Shown here in pieces: positions 17,654 to 61,020 of a DNA stretch of 64,000 nt. Source of the stretch: Nymphaea colorata (Eukaryota > Streptophyta > Magnoliopsida > Nymphaeales > Nymphaeaceae). The notes under the pieces were generated by a model. It was not told the DNA's origin. It worked only from the letters and a program-made list of their open reading frames with translations, and made no database searches. The stretch lies in the NCBI RefSeq assembly GCF_008831285.2, contig NC_045149.1, positions 14,968,578-15,032,577 of the forward strand, written 5' to 3'. Both the position numbers and the translations under genes were made by a program. How positions within the stretch are numbered: position 1 is the stretch's first letter; each line of letters starts with the position of its first letter.

Positions 17654-20233
17654 ATGAGAGAAACTGGCAGCAGCAGCAGCAGGAGCAGCCACATGAGCCC
17701 GAAAACCACAGACTCACTTCCAGCCATGAGAAAGGGTCCATGGCTGCCTGAGGAAGATGAGATCCTCCTAGAGTACGTCAGGCAATTTGGTGCCAGAGAT
17801 TGGAGCTCCATTCGATCCAAAGGTTTGCTACCAAGAACAGGAAAATCATGCCGCCTGCGCTGGGTTAACAAGCTTAAGCCTGACTTAAAGAGGTACCATC
17901 GGTTACCAGTTTCTTGTTAAAAACTCCTTTAAGTATCAAATCTCATTTAACTTATGCCTCTGTTAGTTTACATAGAAAATGGTAGTAGTAGTAGTAGTAG
18001 GACTTATTATGGCAGTTATATGATTAAGAGAGTGTGTCATGGGTTTTTATTGATCTTATTGTATATAGAACGGCTTACTGTTAACTAAGTTTTAGGTCTG
18101 GGTCTTGCTTGTGGAGATTATTTTTTCTCGATTGGCACTTTTAGTTAATTATGTTAAAGAATCTAATCTGAATACCAGTTGGGGAGTACCTCTGTATATT
18201 GTTTGCCTGTTAGCCGAGCTAGATGATGCATTATGAACAAGTTGATGATGTTACATAACAGCAGGTGCAAGTTCTCACCCGAAGAGGAGAGGATAGTGAT
18301 AGAACTGCAAGCCAAATTCGGTAATAAATGGGCTAGAATTGCTACTTATCTACCAGGAAGGACCGACAATGATGTGAAGAATTTCTGGAGTACAAGACAG
18401 AAGAGGTTGGCAAGGATGCTTCAAGCTCCAGCACCGGGACAAGCATCGTCGTCGTCATCATCTGCGGCTCCGACTTCGATTATGGCTCCTCCGACTTCGG
18501 CTATGGCTCCGACTCCGACTCCGACTCCGACTCAGGCTCCGGCATTGCAGTACCCACCACCTAAGCTTGTTACAATGGATGCCAGGGGCATAGATCCAGT
18601 TGCAAGGATCAGAATTTTCCAAGAATTTTCGGTGTTTGAGGTGAGAAAATTGGCAATATTTTTTTTCAAATTATATCAATGTGGGAATTGTATTTTAAGG
18701 GAAAATTACAAGAAGATCCTGAAATTTTTTAGGCAATTCAAATGCGCACCGAAGTTATTTTATGGTTAGCCAAGAACAAACACTTGTATCGCTGCCGAAT
18801 ACAAATGGCTAGGTATAGACATAAGAATGGTGACCTGAACGGTGAACGCCATTTGGTTTGACCCGAACCTGATTCCGATATGATTTTGCTTGGATATCTG
18901 GCACAGTATACTACATGTATTTTAAAGTTTCTATTATATAGAAAGCATGAAATATAAAAGTTTTCTTTCGATTTATGCGTTGAAGGGGCCAATTGCAATT
19001 ATTTTCCCTAACAAATTAGTTTAAAAGAACTGTCTTGTCATGTATGTTCTCCCACGTGATGGACCCCACGCGTCCTTATTTTCTCTCCCGTTTTCTCATT
19101 TTTCACTTTTCTTTTATTTTGTTAAATTTTAAGCACAGACCAGACCACCTATACCGATCTTCTCTCTCTCTCTTAAATTTACTCATTTTTGCTTTACTTT
19201 TTTTGGCTTTGTTTTTAAGACCAACTGTCCACAATCCCCACGTTCTCACACTTGGCCCTCCCTGCCATCTCTACTCATTACTTCTTCTTCTTTTCTCTCT
19301 CTCTCTCCTATATATATATATAGGGAGAAAAAGAATCATGTCGTTGGAGTTTGATGGAGTCCTGCAACTTCTTTTTATGTACTAAGAATGCATGTTAGGT
19401 TGTGGAAATCGATACGCAATTGAGTTACAAATACAAATATGAAACAAAGAACACAAATGAGGGCAGTTTCATAGAAAAATTCGACCCATAACAAGATTCT
19501 CGAATTTGATGAAATCTAAAAGATACTGGCCACTAAAATACCATAATTTCATCCGCCATATTAGCCTGCCAATATTTTTTTCTCTTTTCATGGTTTTCAT
19601 TTCTAATATTATGGCTTATGGTGAAATTTCTATATCCAAATATTTGTGGTATATGGTCTTGATGAAATACCAAATCAAACCATGGATGCTTCTGCCTGAC
19701 TTGGTCATTTTCAATTGTGTCCTTAGGCACCCCTTCTCAATCCCTTGCCGTTCTCCGGCGAACCACAATGCGATCAAACCTCGAACTGTTCCACCGTTCT
19801 TGGCAACGCTGATGTGATCACCATGGTTCGCTTGCCGGATATGATCAACGAAAATATCCTCAACCTGGACGCGAACAGCCGTCCGCCCCAACAACTCAGG
19901 TGCAGCAACACAAAGGTTGAAGAAGAAGATCATCTAACAATTGGCAGCCACATCCCACAACCTCCATTGGATGTCCAGTTTGTGCCAATGATGGATGACT
20001 TTGCTCCTGGATTCTACGACGATGATTTTCCGGCGGACAGCATTGGCCAGGAAGACCCGTTGAAGCTCCCACTCAGTTTGCCAACATTGGATTATGATGA
20101 AGAAAAAGTAGGAACCAAGCAAGAGGATACCGACGACCCGGCTACTCCTGACAGCTTCTTTGATGATTTTCCAACAGACATGTTTGACTGCTCGGAGCCA
20201 GTGCCTACGCCAACAACACTGCCGGACTGGTGA
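17654..20233 (+). CDS. DUO1: DUO POLLEN1-type R2R3-MYB transcription factor
   Basis: Activator of the male germline programme, needed in Arabidopsis for generative-cell mitosis and sperm differentiation. Exons: 17654-17892, 18262 (or 18265)-18640, 19727-20233; the protein has 374 (or 373) residues. R2 starts at about residue 26 ([17 protein letters not shown]) and includes [20 protein letters not shown], typical of DUO1. R3 follows with [29 protein letters not shown] and [16 protein letters not shown] Ser/Pro/Thr-rich linker follows, then an acidic C-terminus with [10 protein letters not shown] and [18 protein letters not shown], like the DUO1 activation tail. The start is the first in-frame ATG; ATGs at residues 14 and 25 are alternatives. 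The R2/R3 junction spacing depends on a CAGCAG acceptor: the upstream choice gives the extra residue that marks DUO1 proteins. An apparent miR159 site lies in exon 1. The gene converges on APC8. Confidence 0.93.
17801..17821 (+). promoter_or_regulatory. Apparent miR159 target site in DUO1 exon 1
   Basis: The 21 bases here run TGGAGCTCCATTCGATCCAA plus A and code for WSSIRSK of R2. Against a perfect complement of canonical miR159 (recalled as UUUGGAUUGAAGGGAGCUCU plus A) they differ at three places: two are G:U wobbles (miRNA positions 8 and 20) and one is a mismatch at miRNA position 12, leaving the cleavage pair 10/11 intact. Arabidopsis DUO1 (MYB125) is a known miR159 target. Pairing was judged by eye. 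Confidence 0.8.
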
Positions 20234-21154: not shown

Positions 21155-24100
21155 TCAAGGCATGAATTGATCGACTTCCATTGAAGGAAAACCAGACTGT
21201 GAAGTTTTCATTCCCATAATGTTCCTTGCGGTCTCCTTTTCCTACGATGACACCAAGCAATATCAGCAGAATAATCACTTAATATGTCAGAACCACTAAA
21301 CGAGAAAAATGCCATGCCCAACTTACATGGAATAGGCATGACAAAGTTATGAACATGCTTACAGAAAATTGAAGTTTCTGCGTGCAAAAACCTGATTACC
21401 AAGCAAAAGCCAGGAAAGTTTTTAAACTATCCAGCTCACATCCATCAAAGAGAACTGCCAAAGTCATTCACTAGTTACCAAAATTTGTGTCTCGAGTTAG
21501 AAAATTTTCAAATACTGATGAGCCTTCCAGTTCACAAATACAATTTCAAAGGCAAGATTAATTGAATGATTGACCACAATTGCAGCTTGGTCTACCAAAA
21601 CATCACAATTTTCCACAAACCAGTAACAAGTTAAGGAACTAATTAGAATGTATAGTGTGAAAATGGATGGATTCAGTACCCAAGGTTAAATCATCTGTTT
21701 CCAAGAAGGAATTACAAACAGAAAAAACAAGCGAAAGCAAAATCTCTTTGGTCATCAGAAGACTGAAATTTGGTTTGATAACTCACATGCCAATCATCTC
21801 ATGGCTATTGAGAATGAATCAAATAGATAGATATTTTTCTCAATCTTCCAGACTTGTTCCTATGGAACCAAGGTCGAAAGGTTGAGAAGGTTGGTTATCA
21901 TGTTATCTACCAAACAGAGGGTAGATAGAATTGGTCTTTCAGCAATATAATGTCATGTTCAGTTTTTAGCATTCCGCAGAAATGTAAAACAGAAACACGG
22001 TATTCACTTTCACTTACGAGTTTTAAAATACATATGCTACCACATCCTACTGGATCAATCAATTCCATATCAAGCTATTCAGAAAGTATCAGAGTCATTA
22101 AGAAAAGACACATTTTTAGGCTTTTAAGAAACTTCATTTAGAATTCCAACAGAAGAAAAATAACTAACCGTTGCCGTGTAGTCTAGAAGCCTGGTACAGT
22201 ATATTTGAGCCTCCTCGTGCTTGTTTTGAGATTGGCAATGTTCTGCAAGAAAACTCAGAGCTCTGATGACATTTGGACCCTCTCTTTGTTCTTCATCCAT
22301 CCGCTCTAAATCAAGTTTGTAATACATTGCAGCTTGATCCCGGCGACCAAGTTTGTCATGGAGTTCTGCCAGCTTGGACAAAGCAATACCTTCTCTCTCA
22401 TTGTAGTTTGCTGCCCGTTTATAGCACTTGATTGCTTCATCAAGCATATTAAGTTGTCCACTTTCATAGCACTGTGCCAATGCAACCCACATACGAGCAT
22501 CTGTGGGCTGAAGATATGCAGATTTCCTATAGTAGTAGAGAGCATAGAAGGGCATTGCCATCAATTCATAGGTTTGACCTAAACCATACCAAGCACGATA
22601 ATCTCGAACATTTATGTCAACAGCCCTCCGGTAAGCATCAACAGCTGCAGCTGGATTCTTCATCTCTACATATTCATGTCCCATAAGCGTCCAAGCTGAC
22701 AGGTACTTTCTGTTCAGCCTCAGCGCTCTGCGAAAATATATAACAGCCTTCTCATGCAATCCTTTTAGACTATAGTAATTGCCAATTATGCAGCATGATT
22801 CCGGACGATATTTATCAGTTGAGATTACCCTGTGAGCAAGACAACTGAGAGCAGAACAAGACTCCTTCGCATAAAGCACATTCGAGTATACATCCATTGT
22901 ATCTACACGATAAGGATCATTTTTTAGCAGATCATCAAAGATTGCATGCGCTTCATCAAACTCACTCAAACTATACTGAGCTGTTGCAATCTGAGCTTGA
23001 ACATAATCGCTGAGGGAGAAATTTCCTTGCAGAAGTTCATATTTCTTTAGAGCTTCACCATATATCTTGAGCTCAAGGTATGCACTTGCAAAAAAGAAAT
23101 CCTTCATCCAGTGGTTCTTTATGTTCACATTCACATTATTCAGAATATCAATGCTGGTGCAAAGTGACTGAAGTTCTGACCAAGCATTCCAATTCCAAGG
23201 GTAACCATTTACAGACTCAACTAGGACAGCCCGAGCAAGATCATCACAGCCTCTATCACGAAGAACAACGCCATATAAATACAGCCCAAAAGGATCAATA
23301 GACCCTTTTTTGCGGTGCATACACAGCTCCTGCTCAAGGCCACCTAGTTCACAATTAATAGTTGTACCTTTGCCAAAAGGGCCTTCAAGTTCAATCATCT
23401 CTTCCTCTTTACGCTTCTCCCCAGCCTAAAGTAGCAATTAGAAAAATGATGAATCAAATTGCAGAGAAGGATGCCTCAAACATTTCATATTAACATAAAC
23501 CATGTATCTAGGCAGATACTGCTTTGGATCCACAGATTTCTCCTTCTTAATAGATAGTAGAAACTAGAGAACATGTAAGCAATTAATACAAAGAATAGGT
23601 ACTATAGATTATGTTAAGAAAAAGATGTACACAAAACAAGCACAGAGGAAAAAAAAATATCTTCCTATAAATAATAAAGGATAATAAATAAAGTTTCTTA
23701 CACTTGTATCTCAGGAAGGCTGCTGTTTCATGGCAACTTTAATACCACGAAGCTTACTATATTGTGTTCCAATGATGCACAAGCAGGCATAAAATTCTGT
23801 AAGTCTATAGCACGCCTAACGTTAAAAGGATGAAGCTAAATAGATAATAGATGCACATAGAAAGCAAAAAATGGAAAACACAGTTAAGGGATAGCAGACA
23901 AAATCCAGTATATTGACACTCTAAACTGTCTCAACTTTCAATTTGAATTTTGGACAAACTATTGTAACGTATCCAATTGTGGTGCATTTTTTCTTCCATT
24001 TAGCTGTTGCAGTTAGCTTTCAAAATACACAATGAACGAAGCCCTAACACAAAGCTTTGCAAGTAATTTGTAGTTTTGTACCTTCAAACTACATTTTATT

Positions 24101-26778: not shown

Positions 26779-28491
26779 TCAATTGAAACCATTATAATCT
26801 CTGAAAGAAAATGATTCCAGCCACTGCTTCGGAGCGGCAGGATGGATCCTTTTGAGGCAAGAGATGAATCTCCTCTCCGAAGTAGCGAGTATAGTAGCAG
26901 GTGCGTAGTTTATAACCAGCAAGTCTCTCTCCCTAAGCCAAGCCATAATTCTATGCCGAGGCTTCACTCTCTTTTCCAGATCGAAGAGCAGGCAGCCAGG
27001 GAACTTCTGCAGATCCTGCAATGACAATTTCAATCCATTTTGAAAGAAATCGATCTTTTCTTCGATCATGGCAACGCTTTGGTTAAGGATTTTAGGCGAC
27101 AAAAGCATCATTTTCACTAATTCAGAGTGCTCGATTCCCATACCAATAAGACAACTGAAGCGCTGATCCAACTGTTCTTTGGTGGCATGGAGTTTAAGAA
27201 CGATTTCCCTTGCAATGTCGTTTTCGCCGAAACCGACTCCCAGTAAAAATTCCATCTTCGGAATCAGCAGCTTATCCTCTGCTGTTCGATCAGATCTCGG
27301 ATTGCTTTTTGATTCTTCCTTATCGGATTTAGCATTGAAGCCAGTCAATAATCGATGACCACCATTCAGAATTTTACTGCTGAACCAACCATGGAGGCCT
27401 ATAGCTTTCATAATCTCCGGCAAATTCCCGATTGTGTTTCTGCCCAAAACGTGGCGATATCCAAGAACGATCTCTCTCTTCGACTTCCGATCCAAGCCTA
27501 TATAACTCAAAAACTCCGGCATTGTTATCACAAGATCTTTCAAATTAAAATTCAAAATTTCCGGGCGTCGAACGATCAGCCGGCCAACATCTTCGTTCTT
27601 CATTCCCAACCTAGAAAAGAAACTGACCTTTTCTTTCACATTCTCCTCAGAAGATTCAAGCAAAATATTCAAGCCATCGCCCAAGGCTTCCCCAATCGTC
27701 CCCTTCTCGCACCCAAGATCGTAAAAGATCCCAACCTTCCTGCAATTAACGTAGCACAAATCCAAGCAACGCGAATCCGCGAGATGACTCTTGAGCAAGA
27801 CCCACTTGAGATCATCAAACAATCCGTCGTCTTCGCCCGTTGATTCTTCCTCCCGGCGGCCCAAAACGAAGGGAAACGCCAGACAGATGCCGACCAACTG
27901 CGTCCTGCTGAACCCCAACTCGATAATGGCGTCCAGTCGCCGGCGGAGGAGCGATCCGTCGCTATCGAAGATCGAAGCGTCGTGACTGTACAGCAAGCCG
28001 AGCTTGGTCCAGGGGAAGCCGTAGTTGGAGAGCGCAGAGATGGAGTTCAGCAACTGGGGGTTATCGCAGAGGAATAGGCGATCGGCGGGTAGGAAGCGAG
28101 AGACGTCGGAGGCGGCGATGCCGATGCTCTCAAGGAAGGGAAGATACTCGTTGATGGGGTTGTAGCGGAGGAATTGCTGGACGTCGGGGAAGGCGCGGCT
28201 GCGAGAAAGTTTGAGGTTGGAGAGGAGGGACTGGAGGAAGGAGGGTGAGTGCTTGCTGATGTTCTCGGCGTGAGGGTAGAAGAGGGCGCGCGTGGAGTAG
28301 AGATACTCGGTTAGAGCCTGCTTGGCAGGGTTCAGGACGAAAGGGTCGGCGATGGTCCTTCTCTTTCGCTGCTGCCGGAAAGGAACGGCGGTGGTGGTGT
28401 CGCCGGCGGCAATGGCGGTGGACTGAGAGAGGAAGCGTCTGGAGAGGAAAGAGTGGAAGCGGTGGAAGAAGGCAGAGGGCGGAGTATGCAT
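26779..28491 (-). CDS. MTERF18: mTERF-family organelle gene-expression factor, mTERF18-like
   Basis: A single uninterrupted frame of 570 residues on the minus strand. mTERF proteins bind nucleic acid in mitochondria or plastids and affect transcription, splicing or translation. The first 30 residues (MHTPPSAFFHRFHSFLSRRF) are rich in Arg, Ser and Phe with no acidic residue, as in a mitochondrial transit peptide. The body carries repeated mTERF helices, for example YLPFLESIGIAASDVSRFLP, ALSNYGFPWTKLGLLYSHD, FFSRLGMKNEDVGRLIVRRP and FLLGVGFGENDIAREIV. Length and lack of introns fit the long plant mTERF18/SHOT1 type rather than the roughly 300-400-residue forms. The subgroup is from memory and from the nearby DUO1, so the symbol is tentative. 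The start is the first ATG, preceded by a CT-rich leader with a telo-box. Confidence 0.9.
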   Translation of the reverse strand: MHTPPSAFFHRFHSFLSRRFLSQSTAIAAGDTTTAVPFRQQRKRRTIADPFVLNPAKQALTEYLYSTRALFYPHAENISKHSPSFLQSLLSNLKLSRSRAFPDVQQFLRYNPINEYLPFLESIGIAASDVSRFLPADRLFLCDNPQLLNSISALSNYGFPWTKLGLLYSHDASIFDSDGSLLRRRLDAIIELGFSRTQLVGICLAFPFVLGRREEESTGEDDGLFDDLKWVLLKSHLADSRCLDLCYVNCRKVGIFYDLGCEKGTIGEALGDGLNILLESSEENVKEKVSFFSRLGMKNEDVGRLIVRRPEILNFNLKDLVITMPEFLSYIGLDRKSKREIVLGYRHVLGRNTIGNLPEIMKAIGLHGWFSSKILNGGHRLLTGFNAKSDKEESKSNPRSDRTAEDKLLIPKMEFLLGVGFGENDIAREIVLKLHATKEQLDQRFSCLIGMGIEHSELVKMMLLSPKILNQSVAMIEEKIDFFQNGLKLSLQDLQKFPGCLLFDLEKRVKPRHRIMAWLRERDLLVINYAPATILATSERRFISCLKRIHPAAPKQWLESFSFRDYNGFN

Positions 28492-28555
28492 TACGCTTCC
28501 CCCCTTTCTGTCTTCTCTATCTTTTGCTCTGGTGGGTTCGCAGCGGAAAGAGGGC

Positions 28556-28564
28556 TTAGGGTTT
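28556..28564 (-). promoter_or_regulatory. Telo-box upstream of the mTERF gene
   Basis: The minus strand reads AAACCCTAA 65 bases before the mTERF start codon. This motif is frequent just downstream of the transcription start of plant housekeeping and organelle-related genes. Functional role inferred. Confidence 0.45.
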
Positions 28565-45300: not shown

Positions 45301-47847
45301 TTCAGGGGCTTCTGCTCGGACTGCTTCTTCAGGCAGCCCTGCAGATTCAACATTATCAAACATCCAGGTAATAGAGCTGCGGCTATTCTTTTCCAGCACA
45401 AGTTAATATATGCTGAAAGTTGCTCTTTCATAACTGATGATTTTTGCAACTATTTTGATCAGATAACTGATGAGCTAGAAAGGCTAAAAATTGAACTTCG
45501 TCACGTCCAGGAAATGTTTAGGATAGCTCAAGATGAGAAGGCTGATACTGCTCGCAAGGTAATCACGTCTTCCTCTAGAGGATATTTGTGCTGTTATCAA
45601 AGTTATTAATCGGAGAAAGTTTTTTTTGCTTGACCATTCCTAATTCCTGCATTTTGACAAAAAATTGAGGACCATAAGAATGCCCTCCGAAAAGATGAAA
45701 AGATATGCAATTGTCAAGAACCATAGAGAAAATAGTTGACAAACAGTGATGCACACAAATTATGTTGTAAATGCTTGCCTCTGTCTAGATTAGAAACCTT
45801 TCCATTAACTGTAAATGTTGGTTCTGTTCGTCAACAACAGCTACTAGTCATATTTACCAACCAATTTTGATGTTTTTTCTTCTTAAAATTTTAGGTAGCT
45901 GAGTTAAGCAGCCTCAAGATGAAAGAAGCAAACAGACTCAAATTAGTGAGTACAAAAGAAGAGAATGTGAGAGAAGTTGCAAATTTTGAAAAGGAAAAAC
46001 GTGAACTTGCTGAAAGCGAAGCTGAATTTGCAAAGGAATGCTTGGACAGAGAAATCATTCAGAGGAAAGCTGCCGAGGTCATAGCTGCACGTGAAAAGAA
46101 AGAGAAACAGAAGCTGGAAAACATGCTTGTTTATCTGGATCAACAGTTTGAGAAATTTGAATGGGATGAAATAGTTTCTGCTACTTCATCATTCTCAGAT
46201 TCTCTTTGCATTGGAGAAGGCGCATATGGAGCGGTTTATAAGTGCACTTTGCGACACACAACAGTAGCTGTGAAAGTCTTGAAATCAATTGAAGTAAAAA
46301 TGGACAAACAATTCCAGCGGGAGGTATGCTCTCGATTTTCCACTGATGCCAAGAAATGAACCGATCTTATCTCTCCTGTAAAGAACTAAAGAATTTGAAT
46401 TGCAGAAAGCTCAAGCAGTCAGGCACTGAGTCTCTGGTTTCATGCCCATGTAGTGGGGACTTGATCGGTGTCTCGGTTGAGTTTTGTTTGAGCTCTTTAT
46501 GGACTCGCAAGACACCACAACTGTTTTAGGTTCTGGTTCCCAGTTTCCTGAGGCTGTGATTATGTTTCAGGCCACTGAAAATTTCTGAGATTGCTGATCT
46601 CACTTACAGTGGCCAGGCTATTGATCGAGTCTCTTGAAGTTCTCATTAGGAGATTATTTTTGGTGGTTGTTATTTTATCATATTTGGATTATATTTTGTG
46701 TTCTGAATTGCAAGAGGATATTAAGTTTTTTTTTTTCTTTTTAATTTTACCTGGGTTTCAGCTTGAGATACTGAGCAGAATTCGCCATCCCCATTTACTA
46801 CTGCTTGTTGGTGCTTGTCCTGATCACGGCTGCTTGGTTTATGAATACATGGAAAATGGTAGTCTGGAGGACAGGCTGCGCAGAAAGCATGGTACCCCAC
46901 CAATTAGTTGGTTTGATCGTATTAGAATAGCTTGGGAGGTGGCTTCTGCACTGCTGTTCCTGCATAGTTCCAAGCCACGACCAGTTGTTCATCGTGATCT
47001 AAAACCTGCTAATATCTTGCTCGATCGCAACTTTGTAAGCAAGATTGGAGATGTGGGGCTCTGTACTCTCATCCCTGTGGATCATGAAACCATGGCCACA
47101 GTGTACAAGAATACAGCTCTTGTGGGACATACTGTTACGTGGATCCAGAGTACCAAAGGACTGGTTTAGTCTCACCAAAGTCAGATACATACGCTCTTGG
47201 CATTGTAATTTTGCAATTGTTGACTGGACAACCTCCGATGGGCCTAGCCCATTTTGTGGAAAAGGCAATGGAGGATGACCATCTGGAAGAAATTTTGGAC
47301 GACACTGCAGGGAATTGGCTAATCAGAGAAGCCAAGGAGCTGGCAGATCTGGGCTTGCGTTGTGCAGAACTCAAACATAAAGATAGACCAGATTTAAAGG
47401 ATGCAGTTCTTCCAGTTTTGTGGAGATTGAAAGAGGCTGCTGATAGCGCAAAACAGTCGACTTCCAATGTTAATGCACCTCCGAGTCATTTCCTCTGCCC
47501 AATACTTCAGGTTAAGCCTTTCCTTCTGTGATGCCAATCCTGTTCTACTTTTGAGGCTTCAGACATTCACCATTGCTCTAGAGTTTATTAATTTTATCTT
47601 TCCTGTTACAGTGCCAGCATCTAACCTACGTTTTAACTGAAAGAATCATCTCGTAATAATGCAGGACATAATCGAAGATCCATGGGTTGCACCAGATGGA
47701 TACACATATGAGAGGAAAGCCATAGAGAGATGGTTTAAGACACATGATACATCGCCTATGACGAATTTGCCTTTGCCAAATAAGAATCTCATTCCCAACC
47801 ATACTCTATCTGCTGCAATTTCAGAGTGGAAATCCAAGAACCAGTGA
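41505..47847 (+). CDS. U-box/kinase protein (PUB51/52-type), first tandem copy, with a frameshift
   Basis: A predicted cytoplasmic E3 ligase fused to a receptor-like kinase domain. Nine exons: 41505-41685, 42715-42833, 42927-43048, 44325-44518, 45042-45367, 45463-45558, 45895-46323, 46762-47510, 47665-47847. Order: USP-like domain (about 1-165, VVAIAASGKKNSKLALKWAL), Ser-rich linker, coiled coil (about 315-430), kinase (GEGAYGAVYK loop, VAVK Lys about 473, HRDLKPAN Asp about 568, DVG at 586) and C-terminal U-box (DIIEDPWVAPDGYTYER). Exon 8 is 749 bases where its paralogue has 750: one base is lost after position 47127, in the activation segment, giving a stop soon after. Frame downstream is otherwise intact, so the defect is recent or a sequencing error. 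If real, kinase lobe C and the U-box are lost. DVG instead of DFG is usual in this subfamily. Intron 2's donor neighbourhood (GTCTGA) is weak. Confidence 0.85.
42323..42365. repeat. AG microsatellite in intron 1 of the first U-box kinase gene
   Basis: About 21 uninterrupted GA dinucleotides. Frames through it are artefacts. Confidence 0.95.
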
Positions 47848-56629: not shown

Positions 56630-59600
56630 TAATCAAACATCACTTTTGTTGTTTGCATACTAACTAGTAACTTTTACCTTGTTCCTTATCATTTTCACTG
56701 TGAAATTCTCGAAAATCCTGCTTTGTGGCAATAGAGATGACACTTGCACAACTACTTCTACTACCTGACCGCTTATTTTCTTACTATGGCAGAATGACAT
56801 TGTGCATCCATTTTCTCTTTGATTGTTTGTTGTCAATCAGTATTTGGATGTAGTTCTTTATATTTGTTTATTATGCATTTGACTAAAGAAAAGCTGTATT
56901 ATTTGGAGATTCAGACACCGTGGTCTATCCAGAAGAATCTCTAGCAGTGTTCCGAACATTTGCACTGTATATGTCATTTCAAAAGGAAAATTATCATCCA
57001 TCCAATCGGCCAGCTCAGTGGAGAATGGTGTAAGGAGCTCTGGTACGACCTCCTTTAACAGTGTCTCATCTTTAGGTTCCACCACACAAACAGGTAACAG
57101 AGTTTCCTTGCAACAGGTGGCAGCATTTTTTTGTTTGCTTGACTATTTAATGGGTTCAAGTTCCATGTTACCTTGAATTTTCCTGCTACTGACCCAATGG
57201 AATAACTACGGTATTTGCTAAGACAATATCAGTCAACCAAGTTCCCGCTTTGCTTTTATGGCCTTCAACTTGGTCCTAGTTGAGTTTACATCAGATCATG
57301 GTCACAAAATCTTAATGACTTGCTTACAAACACGCCCATTTGCATGGGCCTTTAGATCCCATGTGTTTCCAGTGTCTGACCTGTAGTGCCCTAACCAGAT
57401 CCCAGTCTGCTATTGGATTCAGATTCATGTATCATTGTATCCATAATATCCAAGATTGTCGGTTTATGGTTTCCAATTTTTTTTGAAAGTATCACATAGA
57501 TGGACTCAACCGCAGTTGGAACTTCAGTTTTTCTGGATAGTTGAAGGAAATGTCAAGCCATACTAAGTGCATGACTCTTGCCTTAGTAATAATACCATGT
57601 ACTTCACTACTTACACTGTTGTTTGTTATTGCTAACACTATAATGGCAGAATGGACTGGTATGAGCCCGTCAGATGAAGATAGTCAGATGCCTTCTCCGT
57701 CTATGTTAGATCAGCATTGTCAGGCTCTGTCAAATATGAATCGGGTTATTCTTAACAGTGCAGTTGATATCAACCATTCTAGGAATTCGTCTCTTCCTAA
57801 CATTGAGGATATTATCTCTCTCAGTTCTGGGTATATGGAAACACGTAATACTGCCATTTCAGCAAGTATTGGGAGCTTCCAAAGTGAGACCCTGTCCTGG
57901 ATCTCAGACCAGGCAACTACATCAGACATTCAGACAGAAAAATTCTCTGCCTCACAAGTAAGACATAATGTCGCCCATATCTATCATGGTATTGTCTCTT
58001 GTTACATAAATGATAATAAGTTTGACTAGCGATCAATTCCAAGACTGCACATTAATTATTTGGTTTTAACTTTGCCTTGGTGTACTCACATGTTCTTTTC
58101 TTTCACAAATATGCAGTTGGATCTTGATCTTGAATTAGAGAAGCTGCGAATTGAGCTTAGGCATGCCCAGAAGATGTGCAGTATGGCTGAAGAGGAGACG
58201 GCTGATGTTTCTCAGAAGGTAACTAAGTCATCGGTGGTGCTTGTTATGTGATTTAAGTCAGAAGTCTTATGAAAAGTTAATGTGGAATCCATGCCAAAGT
58301 GAAGTCATATGGATTCATCAAGTTGCTACGCCTGACTTGACACAATTTGGCTGTGGGTGTGGCTCCAATGAGACCCAACTATTTGTCTGTTTTCTGTTGA
58401 ATAGCTGATATATGTATATATATAACACATTTGCTGCACCCTCATCTATACCTGCATGGCTGCACCCACACCTCCCACTTATGACATAGATGGCAAGTAA
58501 TGTGCAGCATATACAAATGTTTTCCTGCTCTAATCATTTCTTGAAGTAATTTTTGTGATATTAGGTGACCCAACTTAGCGCTCTCAAGATGAATGAAGCA
58601 AGCAAACTTGAAGAAATAAGCTGCAAGGAAGAAATGGCGAGAGAATCTGCAAAATGTGAGAGGGAGAAGCGTGAAGCTGCTGAAAAAGAAGCTGAATTTG
58701 TAAAAGAATGTGCGGAACGTGAACTCATGCAGCGGAGAGGTGCTGAAAGTAGGGCTTCACGAGATGTGAAAGAGAAAACCTATATAGAAAATACACTGGA
58801 GCGACTGGATCAGCGATACAAGAAGATTTCATGGGAAGAAATAGTGTCTGCGACCTCGTGCTTTTCTGATTCACTCCGAATTGGAGGTGGAGCATATGGC
58901 ACTGTCTACAAATGCAGGTTGCATCATACCACGGTAGCTGTTAAGGTCCTTCAGTTAAATGAAGAATACAAGACCAAGCAATTCCATCAAGAGGTATGGA
59001 ACTTTAAAAGCCATGGTGCAATATTTCATGGATACGGTGGCCCCATAGCATTTCTTGGTTATCAACTCAACCTTAGGTTAATGGTTGCTCGAGCCTAAGT
59101 AACCAACTTTTGACAATGGGAGGTTGGCCATCGGATTGTTGATCTCGAAACAAGCACAGATGGGCCCACCTGGTCTTCATCTTAGGATAAGTTTAACTTG
59201 CTATTAGGTATTTTACAACAGAAGGCAGATACAGTCAGAGAGAGTGAGAGAAAGAGGAGAGAGAGAGAGAAGGATGCTGGTTTTTGTTTAAAGTCATTAC
59301 TGTTATCTGGGTTGGTAATACCACTTAGCAAGGGCAACGATATTTAATAACACATTTTCAGTCTAAGGCTAGACCAACTTAACTCTAATTTGCACAAAAG
59401 AAGAGAGAGAACCAGATAAAGCTTGCCAAGTGCCAACAGAGCCCAACATCTAAATTTCACCTCCGTTCGCCTGACAACAATCAGGATTGTGAAGTGATTT
59501 TATATTTCTAATTAATAGGAGTCCTCAGCTGTGGCTTTTGGTGAATCAGCACTGTTCTTAATTAATCAACATAGTTTAAGGTCCAATTGTGGTACATCTG

Positions 59601-61020
59601 GTAGGTTTTCCACTACTTGGTTGCGACATGGTCTTTTTCCTTTTCAGCATATATGCAGTCGGTTCATTTCTCTTCCTCTTTGAAACTCATGCTATAAAAT
59701 CTGTGAGCTTAACACATAACAAACTTGGCTGTTATCACATGCCAAAATTGAGCAACTTACATCTTTGGAATTTGCTTTACGTATTACATTGTTTTCACAA
59801 ATATGATGGGCAGTTTTGGCTTCTGGATTTCAGCTTGAAGTGTTGAGCAAAATTCGCCATCCCCATCTGCTGTTGCTTCTTGGTGCATGCCCCGATCATG
59901 GTTGTTTGGTTTATGAGTTCATGGAAAACGGCAGCTTGGATGATCGGTTGTTCCGTCAAGGCAATTCTTCCTCAATCCCTTGGATTGATCGCTTCCGAAT
60001 AGCTTGGGAAATAGGCTCAGCTCTACATTTTCTGCACAACTCAAAGCCAAAGCCGATTGTTCATCGTGATCTGAAACCAGCAAACATATTGCTTGACCAC
60101 AACCTTGTGAGTAAAATTGGTGATGTTGGTCTAGCTACACTACTTCCCACAAATCTTGCTACTGGTACAGCCTACAAGAACACAGCACTTGCTGGCACAT
60201 TTTGTTACATCGACCCAGAGTACCAGAGGACTGGTTTAGTGTCGTCCAAATCAGATCTATATGCACTTGGTGTGGTAATCCTGCAATTACTGACTGCTAA
60301 ACCTCCAATGGGTCTTGCCTACTTGGTAGAAACAGCTCTCTTGGAGAATAGGTTTGAAGACTTGTTGGATGTCACAGCTGGTGAATGGCCTCTTGAAGAA
60401 ACACAGGAACTGGCAGCTTTGGGTTTGAGCTGTGCAGAGTTAAGGCGCTCGGATAGGCCAGATTTGGGGAATGCGGTTCTTCCAATGCTCGAGAGATTGA
60501 AAGGGTTTGCAGAAACGGCACGGGTTTCAATGCCCAAAACACAAAATTTACCCCCAAGCCACTTCGTTTGCCCGATACTTCAGGTCATTGGCATTCATTT
60601 TCCCTCGTTTTTTTCCCCTCGTTTTTTTTTCCCTCCCTGCGTGTCTAGTGATCTTGGTCTTCGCGAGCTCTCAATTTCCTGGTTATCCACTGATAAACAG
60701 AGCTAGGTATTTCTTCAGGGATGAGCGAACGATCATTCCACGATTCATGAACATTTTATATTCCATGATGATCGATTTATTGTTTTAGATTCATTTGGAG
60801 TAGTTGATTGTTGCAGGATGTGATGCAGAACCCTTGCGTGGCGGCTGATGGTTACACATATGAACGAAGAGCAATAGAAAAGTGGCTAAGCATGAACGAC
60901 AAATCACCACTGACAAATTTACCGTTACCCAACAAGTTCCTTATCCCTAATTATTCTCTGCTTGGAGCCATTAGAGAGTGGAGATCCAAAACGTCCGGGA
61001 TGCTCAACAAAAGAAGTTAG
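54601..61020 (+). CDS. U-box/kinase protein (PUB51/52-type), second tandem copy
   Basis: Intact paralogue of the gene at 41505-47847, with the same nine-exon structure and identical phases: 54601-54796, 55136-55257, 55848-55969, 56915-57093, 57650-57957, 58117-58218, 58565-58993, 59834-60583, 60817-61020; 803 residues. A USP-like N-terminus (VTVAISGSKNSKHALTWALE) is followed by a variable Ser-rich region, a coiled coil (about 310-430, KCEREKREAAEKEAEFVKEC), a kinase (GGGAYGTVYK, VAVK Lys about 470, HRDLKPAN Asp about 565, DVG at 583, GTFCYIDPEYQRTGLVSSKS) and a U-box (DVMQNPCVAADGYTYERRAI, from about 737). The glycine loop starts GGG rather than the paralogue's GEG. Such proteins are thought to couple kinase signalling to ubiquitination; partners are unknown here. 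Exons 3 and 7 have exactly the same length in both copies. Confidence 0.93.
56564..56624. repeat. CATA / TA microsatellite in intron 3 of the second U-box kinase gene
   Basis: About eight CATA units followed by about 15 TA units. Confidence 0.9.

Follow-up and report, generated by a model that had tools for sequence, protein, structure and literature searches.

The DUO1-type gene and its surroundings

The window analysed here is a 64,000-nucleotide stretch of the Nymphaea colorata genome (408 Mb, 783 contigs) and comes from contig G000:C12, which is 23 Mb long. On its plus strand, positions 17654 to 20233 hold a complete three-exon R2R3-MYB gene of the DUO1 type, the frame of which is intact (Table 1). 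The start at 17654 is putative, more in-frame ATGs being found downstream. Two stretches of the predicted protein match the Pfam model PF00249 (106.6 bits) and correspond to the two MYB repeats; intron 1 separates the coding parts of R2 and R3.

Table 1. Features of the DUO1-type gene, in positions of the window
Feature	Position	Strand	Remarks
Exon 1, coding part, R2 repeat	17654..17892	+	ends in phase 2 after AG
miR159-like site in exon 1 (R2-coding)	17801..17821	+	3 mismatches to the miR159 complement
Intron 1, GT...AG	17893..18261 or 17893..18264	+	369 nt with the first AG, 372 nt with the second AG
Branch-point candidate TTGAT	18242..18246	+	A at 18245; consensus match only
Tandem acceptor CAGCAG	18259..18264	+	followed by GTGC (G at 18265)
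Exon 2, R3 repeat	18262..18640, or from 18265	+	first AG, or second AG
Lysine before the R3 phenylalanine	18269..18271	+	AAG codon; present with either acceptor
R3 helix-3 serine (FWSTRQKR)	18389..18391	+	AGT codon; in both predicted isoforms
Intron 2, GTGAGA...TTAG	18641..19726	+	1086 nt
Exon 3	19727..20233	+	includes the stop (20231-20233); acidic C terminus ...DDFPTDMFD...

DUO1 plays a key role in sperm-cell formation in plants (PMC4109846). From bryophytes to flowering plants, it is described as having one additional residue, a lysine, in the stretch that joins R2 to R3 (PMC6290024). A lysine that can be equated with this residue is found in both predicted forms of the window protein, as argued below. 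In region C, that is helix 3 of R3, a serine stands instead of asparagine, at a position that we matched by inference to the text of the same paper (PMC6290024). Among 61 loci examined in the genome, helix 3 was legible in 31; 25 of these have asparagine, 5 histidine and one, the window gene, serine. Taken together, the gene resembles AtMYB125 and MpDUO1 in its R2R3 architecture, in one extra linker residue, in the lysine before the R3 phenylalanine, in the helix-3 serine and in the miR159-like site; it differs from Arabidopsis DUO1 in its linker, K-S-R-C-K-F with the alternative K-R-C-K-F. Judged from these characters, the gene is of the DUO1 type. In a miR159 scan of the whole gene, the place next best to the site in exon 1 has 8 mismatches. 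In Arabidopsis, products of miR159-guided cleavage of DUO1 have been reported (PMC2988730).

No second DUO1 was found in a whole-genome protein search in which 110 of 305 candidates were scored, giving 117 matches. Beyond the window gene itself, matched in all three exons, the strongest of the matches listed reaches 109.7 bits at 45% identity over query positions 6-158, and no other match among those listed extends into the C-terminal exon. A tblastn search against 68 fetched loci, 8 of which were re-cut from places already within the other 60, likewise found only the window gene as DUO1. In two collections of viral or prokaryotic DNA, the MYB domain (109 aa) had no relative among the viral contigs and the R3 piece (52 aa) none among the genome contigs. 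MYB-like repeats also occur on small unplaced contigs of the Nymphaea assembly (L009 on G000:C711, L028 on G000:C637, and L049-L065), where many of the matched stretches hold an in-frame TAG; this may be explained by introns, by pseudogenes or by contigs of foreign origin.

The neighbours of the gene, both on the minus strand, are a frame containing TPR repeats and the latter part of the ANAPC8/CDC23 domain (22124-23425) and a long mTERF frame (26779-28563). Farther along, on the plus strand, similar charged N-terminal frames are followed, as seen by eye, by kinase frames at 45895-47531 and 58565-60706. The Pkinase match lies above the cut-off for 59807-60706 and below it for 45895-46359. The two regions are probably tandem duplicates.

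A tandem acceptor at the end of intron 1

Intron 1 starts with the GT at 17893 and ends, as the preliminary description had noted with correct coordinates and arithmetic, in CAGCAG, the two AGs being at 18260-18261 and 18263-18264. Translation bears out the linker lengths that had been proposed for the two products. When exon 1 is joined at 18262, the predicted protein reads ...PDLKSRCKF..., a linker of nine residues in 374 aa; joined at 18265, it reads ...PDLKRCKF..., with eight residues in 373 aa. With either acceptor the frame stays open to the stop codon, and the locus thus holds a NAGNAG motif at the intron end with both frames open. The predicted forms differ by one serine (K-S-R-C-K-F versus K-R-C-K-F) and have the same recognition helix. 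PF00249 scores both alike (106.6 bits), and PF13921 gives the eight-residue form a slightly higher score (75.4 versus 72.2 bits).

A scan from 18201 to 18330 also returned the in-register AGs 18213, 18222 and 18291. Splicing at these would add 16 or 13 residues, or remove 10, and they were rejected as subtle rivals of the tandem pair. The letters of the motif come from one assembly, and CAGCAG might in principle result from misassembly or represent a rare allele; given the intact frames and the length of the contig, 23 Mb, this explanation is extremely improbable.

The linker among the MYB loci of the genome

To place the two linkers, 40 other MYB regions were picked from 149 MYB matches in the same genome. 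In 27 regions the stretch between the R2 proline and the start of R3 was matched without a break; the remaining 13 lacked such a match. The linker has eight residues in 26 of the 27 readable loci, and eight is therefore the usual R2R3-MYB spacing, as had been supposed. The single nine-residue case (L040, PSKERFGRW) looks, in its sequence, unlike the usual R2R3 linkers. The lysine of PDLK is found at the same place in 16 of the 27 other linkers, and the K-R pair of the second-AG form also occurs in linkers such as PDLKRGNF.

Two loci of the same genome, L020 and L026, which we take to be MYB3R-type, also have an intron within an eight-residue R2-R3 linker. It is in phase 0 (PNIK|KDAW), and its acceptor, GCAG|AAG, is without a tandem AG of the CAGCAG form, these junctions having been read by eye. 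The linker intron of DUO1 is in phase 2 and lies two bases beyond this position. Three further loci (L025, L027 and L029), with a presumably GAMYB-like linker, PNLKKG(S/A)F, are intronless from the proline to the start of R3. It is conceivable that an ancestral linker intron moved between the L020/L026 position and that of DUO1.

The extra DUO1 residue thus sits on an intron boundary. Should the intron position be common to DUO1 genes, the clade might have been founded by a splice-site shift, and the plant would still toggle the length of its linker through the acceptor, tuning DUO1 activity in the germline with a single gene; we consider such a history very unlikely. PMC11522220 distinguishes nine patterns of introns and lists two DUO1-like genes for Aquilegia.

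Which residue depends on the acceptor

The linker of the window gene holds two lysines, that of PDLK and that of CKF. Because 16 of the 27 other linkers also have the former, the CKF lysine is taken as the extra residue and would correspond to the supernumerary lysine of DUO1. Its codon is downstream of both AGs, which rules out that the lysine before the phenylalanine is lost through the choice of acceptor. The preliminary description held that the acceptor decides the DUO1-specific residue. This does not agree with the predicted products, in which a serine is toggled and the lysine is kept in both.

The linker of Arabidopsis DUO1 is K-N-G-C-K-F. The second AG of Nymphaea may have been created by a single G-to-A change, turning a Gly codon into an Arg codon.

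What the loss of the serine could do is suggested by work on Marchantia DUO1. The linker region co-determines the DNA motif of DUO1, and activity fell significantly when region B, the seat of the extra lysine, was exchanged; recognition of the DUO1 motif needs regions B and C, and in a model region B is placed where two DNA-interacting helices join (PMC6290024). A change of linker length at region B may well alter or reduce binding, the direction being a guess. No published binding test of a DUO1 minus one linker residue was found.

One gene could, according to the preliminary description, make both a DUO1-type and a generic MYB-type binding domain. The part of this proposal that stands is linker length, which does turn from nine to the generic eight; the lysine and the helix-3 serine stay in both forms. 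Calling the shorter product generic is an overstatement, since it keeps a serine found in one of the 31 loci read. With both marks kept, the second-AG product would rather be a DUO1 with a shorter linker. The wider proposal, a regulated switch between two domain types with different targets, can point to the generic length that is reached, including the K-R pair as in PDLKRGNF, and to Pax3, where one linker residue between DNA-binding subdomains can alter binding (PMC5852603). Such a switch is nevertheless quite unlikely. Both marks remain in either form; region C is also needed for the DUO1 motif, so that generic specificity need not follow from the loss of a single residue in the linker; moreover, the choice between NAGNAG sites is described as a simple stochastic process in animals and as similar in plants (PMC3095350).

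Possible use of the two acceptors

In Arabidopsis, 6,772 of 112,934 intron-exon boundaries (6%) carry a NAGNAG (PMC2375911). The motif itself is thus ordinary; unusual is its place, at the point of the linker where DUO1 exceeds other MYBs by one residue. CAGCAG is the commonest sequence among rice acceptors alternating by 3 bp (PMC1769492). At Arabidopsis CAGCAGA acceptors, the first site was used in 48% of 227 pooled ESTs from 55 acceptors, a figure that holds for CAGCAGA and not for the CAGCAGG of the window (PMC2375911). The base preferred at position +1 of the exon follows the order G>=A>T>C (PMC2375911). In the window gene it is C for the first AG and G for the second, and the second AG should therefore be favoured. 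The pyrimidine tract is weak (39% over 18221-18258). In the 80 nt before the first AG, TTGAT is the sole match to YTNAY; its distances to the two AGs are 16 and 19 nt. The CAGCAG preferences, the +1 bases, the weak tract and the distances from the candidate branch point favour mixed use, the second site being perhaps strong. On such local signals, dual use of both AGs is plausible.

Among Arabidopsis NAGNAGs covered by at least two ESTs, both forms were seen in only 242 of 4,644 (PMC2375911), and in moss in 295 of 5,031 (PMC3095350), so that, at such depth, the majority of NAGNAGs seem constitutive. It may be that only one of the two sites is used to any extent in Nymphaea. If it were the first, the second AG would be a silent by-product of the exon codons and the plant would make ordinary DUO1. 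Selection should keep the nine-residue form, given that region B matters for activity and that no second DUO1 was found, and 2,695 of the 5,031 moss NAGNAGs are spliced at the first site alone (PMC3095350). This alternative is possible but doubtful in view of the better +1 base at the second site (G versus C) and of the rank of CAGCAG as the commonest hexamer at alternating rice acceptors (PMC1769492). Conversely, the second AG might dominate, the extra residue being then lost from most DUO1 transcripts in this lineage. The +1 base speaks for the second site, as does the candidate branch point, which is 19 nt away and within the 19-23 nt given for competing AGs, the first AG being at 16 nt (PMC1769492). 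Dominance of the second site would, however, contradict an extra residue that marks DUO1 from bryophytes to flowering plants (PMC6290024), and we regard it as unlikely.

The reading that we favour, at a probability of about 0.55, is that both AGs are used and that an ordinary DUO1 and a DUO1 with a shorter linker are made, the binding of the latter being likely altered, and that there is no switch to a generic MYB. The spliceosome would take both sites in an unregulated ratio set by the local sequence. Splicing at the first AG would give the ordinary DUO1 (KSRCKF), and splicing at the second a DUO1 (KRCKF) with a linker of generic length, whose binding to DUO1 sites would be altered and most likely reduced. 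That it should be lower is a guess, since the shorter-linker form of Pax3 is reported to bind class I sites more strongly. The consequence would bear on the dose or affinity of DUO1 rather than on a change to a generic MYB programme.

Comparable systems and meaning

No report of a tandem acceptor in DUO1 was found among the open-licence papers listed. The main text of PMC6290024 contains neither 'intron' nor 'alternative splic', 'NAGNAG' is absent from the text of PMC10152659 that was searched, and of two text searches of papers for DUO1 linker sequences one gave no match and the other, judged by title, no MYB paper among the 20 of 41 matches listed.

The Q+ and Q- forms of Pax3 and Pax7 offer a close working parallel. 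There, splicing at an intron-exon junction adds or omits one residue, a glutamine, in the linker between the two DNA-binding subdomains of the paired domain (PMC5852603). In Pax3, Q+ prevails at about 2:1, the two forms bind differently, and stronger binding to class I sites is reported for the shorter one (PMC5852603). The intermediate lobe of the pituitary is reported not to express the shorter (Q-) form of Pax7 (PMC10415112). It should, however, be noted that the paired domain is an animal domain and that both isoforms of Pax3 are demonstrated, whereas those of the window DUO1 are predicted.

Plants provide two further cases (PMC2375911). The TAGCAG acceptor of Arabidopsis U11-35K is, like that of the window DUO1, a plant NAGNAG in a nucleic-acid-binding domain, and it alters affinity in vitro; U11-35K is, however, an RNA-binding protein. 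In tomato prosystemin, the acceptor is CAGCAG and both forms are made. A functional difference between these forms was undetectable, which is a caution for the window DUO1.

If one acceptor alone is used in Nymphaea, the motif would be a common NAGNAG, such as about 6% of introns carry in Arabidopsis. If both forms are made, this water lily would offer a natural isoform pair with which linker length could be tested against the lysine as a source of DUO1 specificity, without engineered chimeras.
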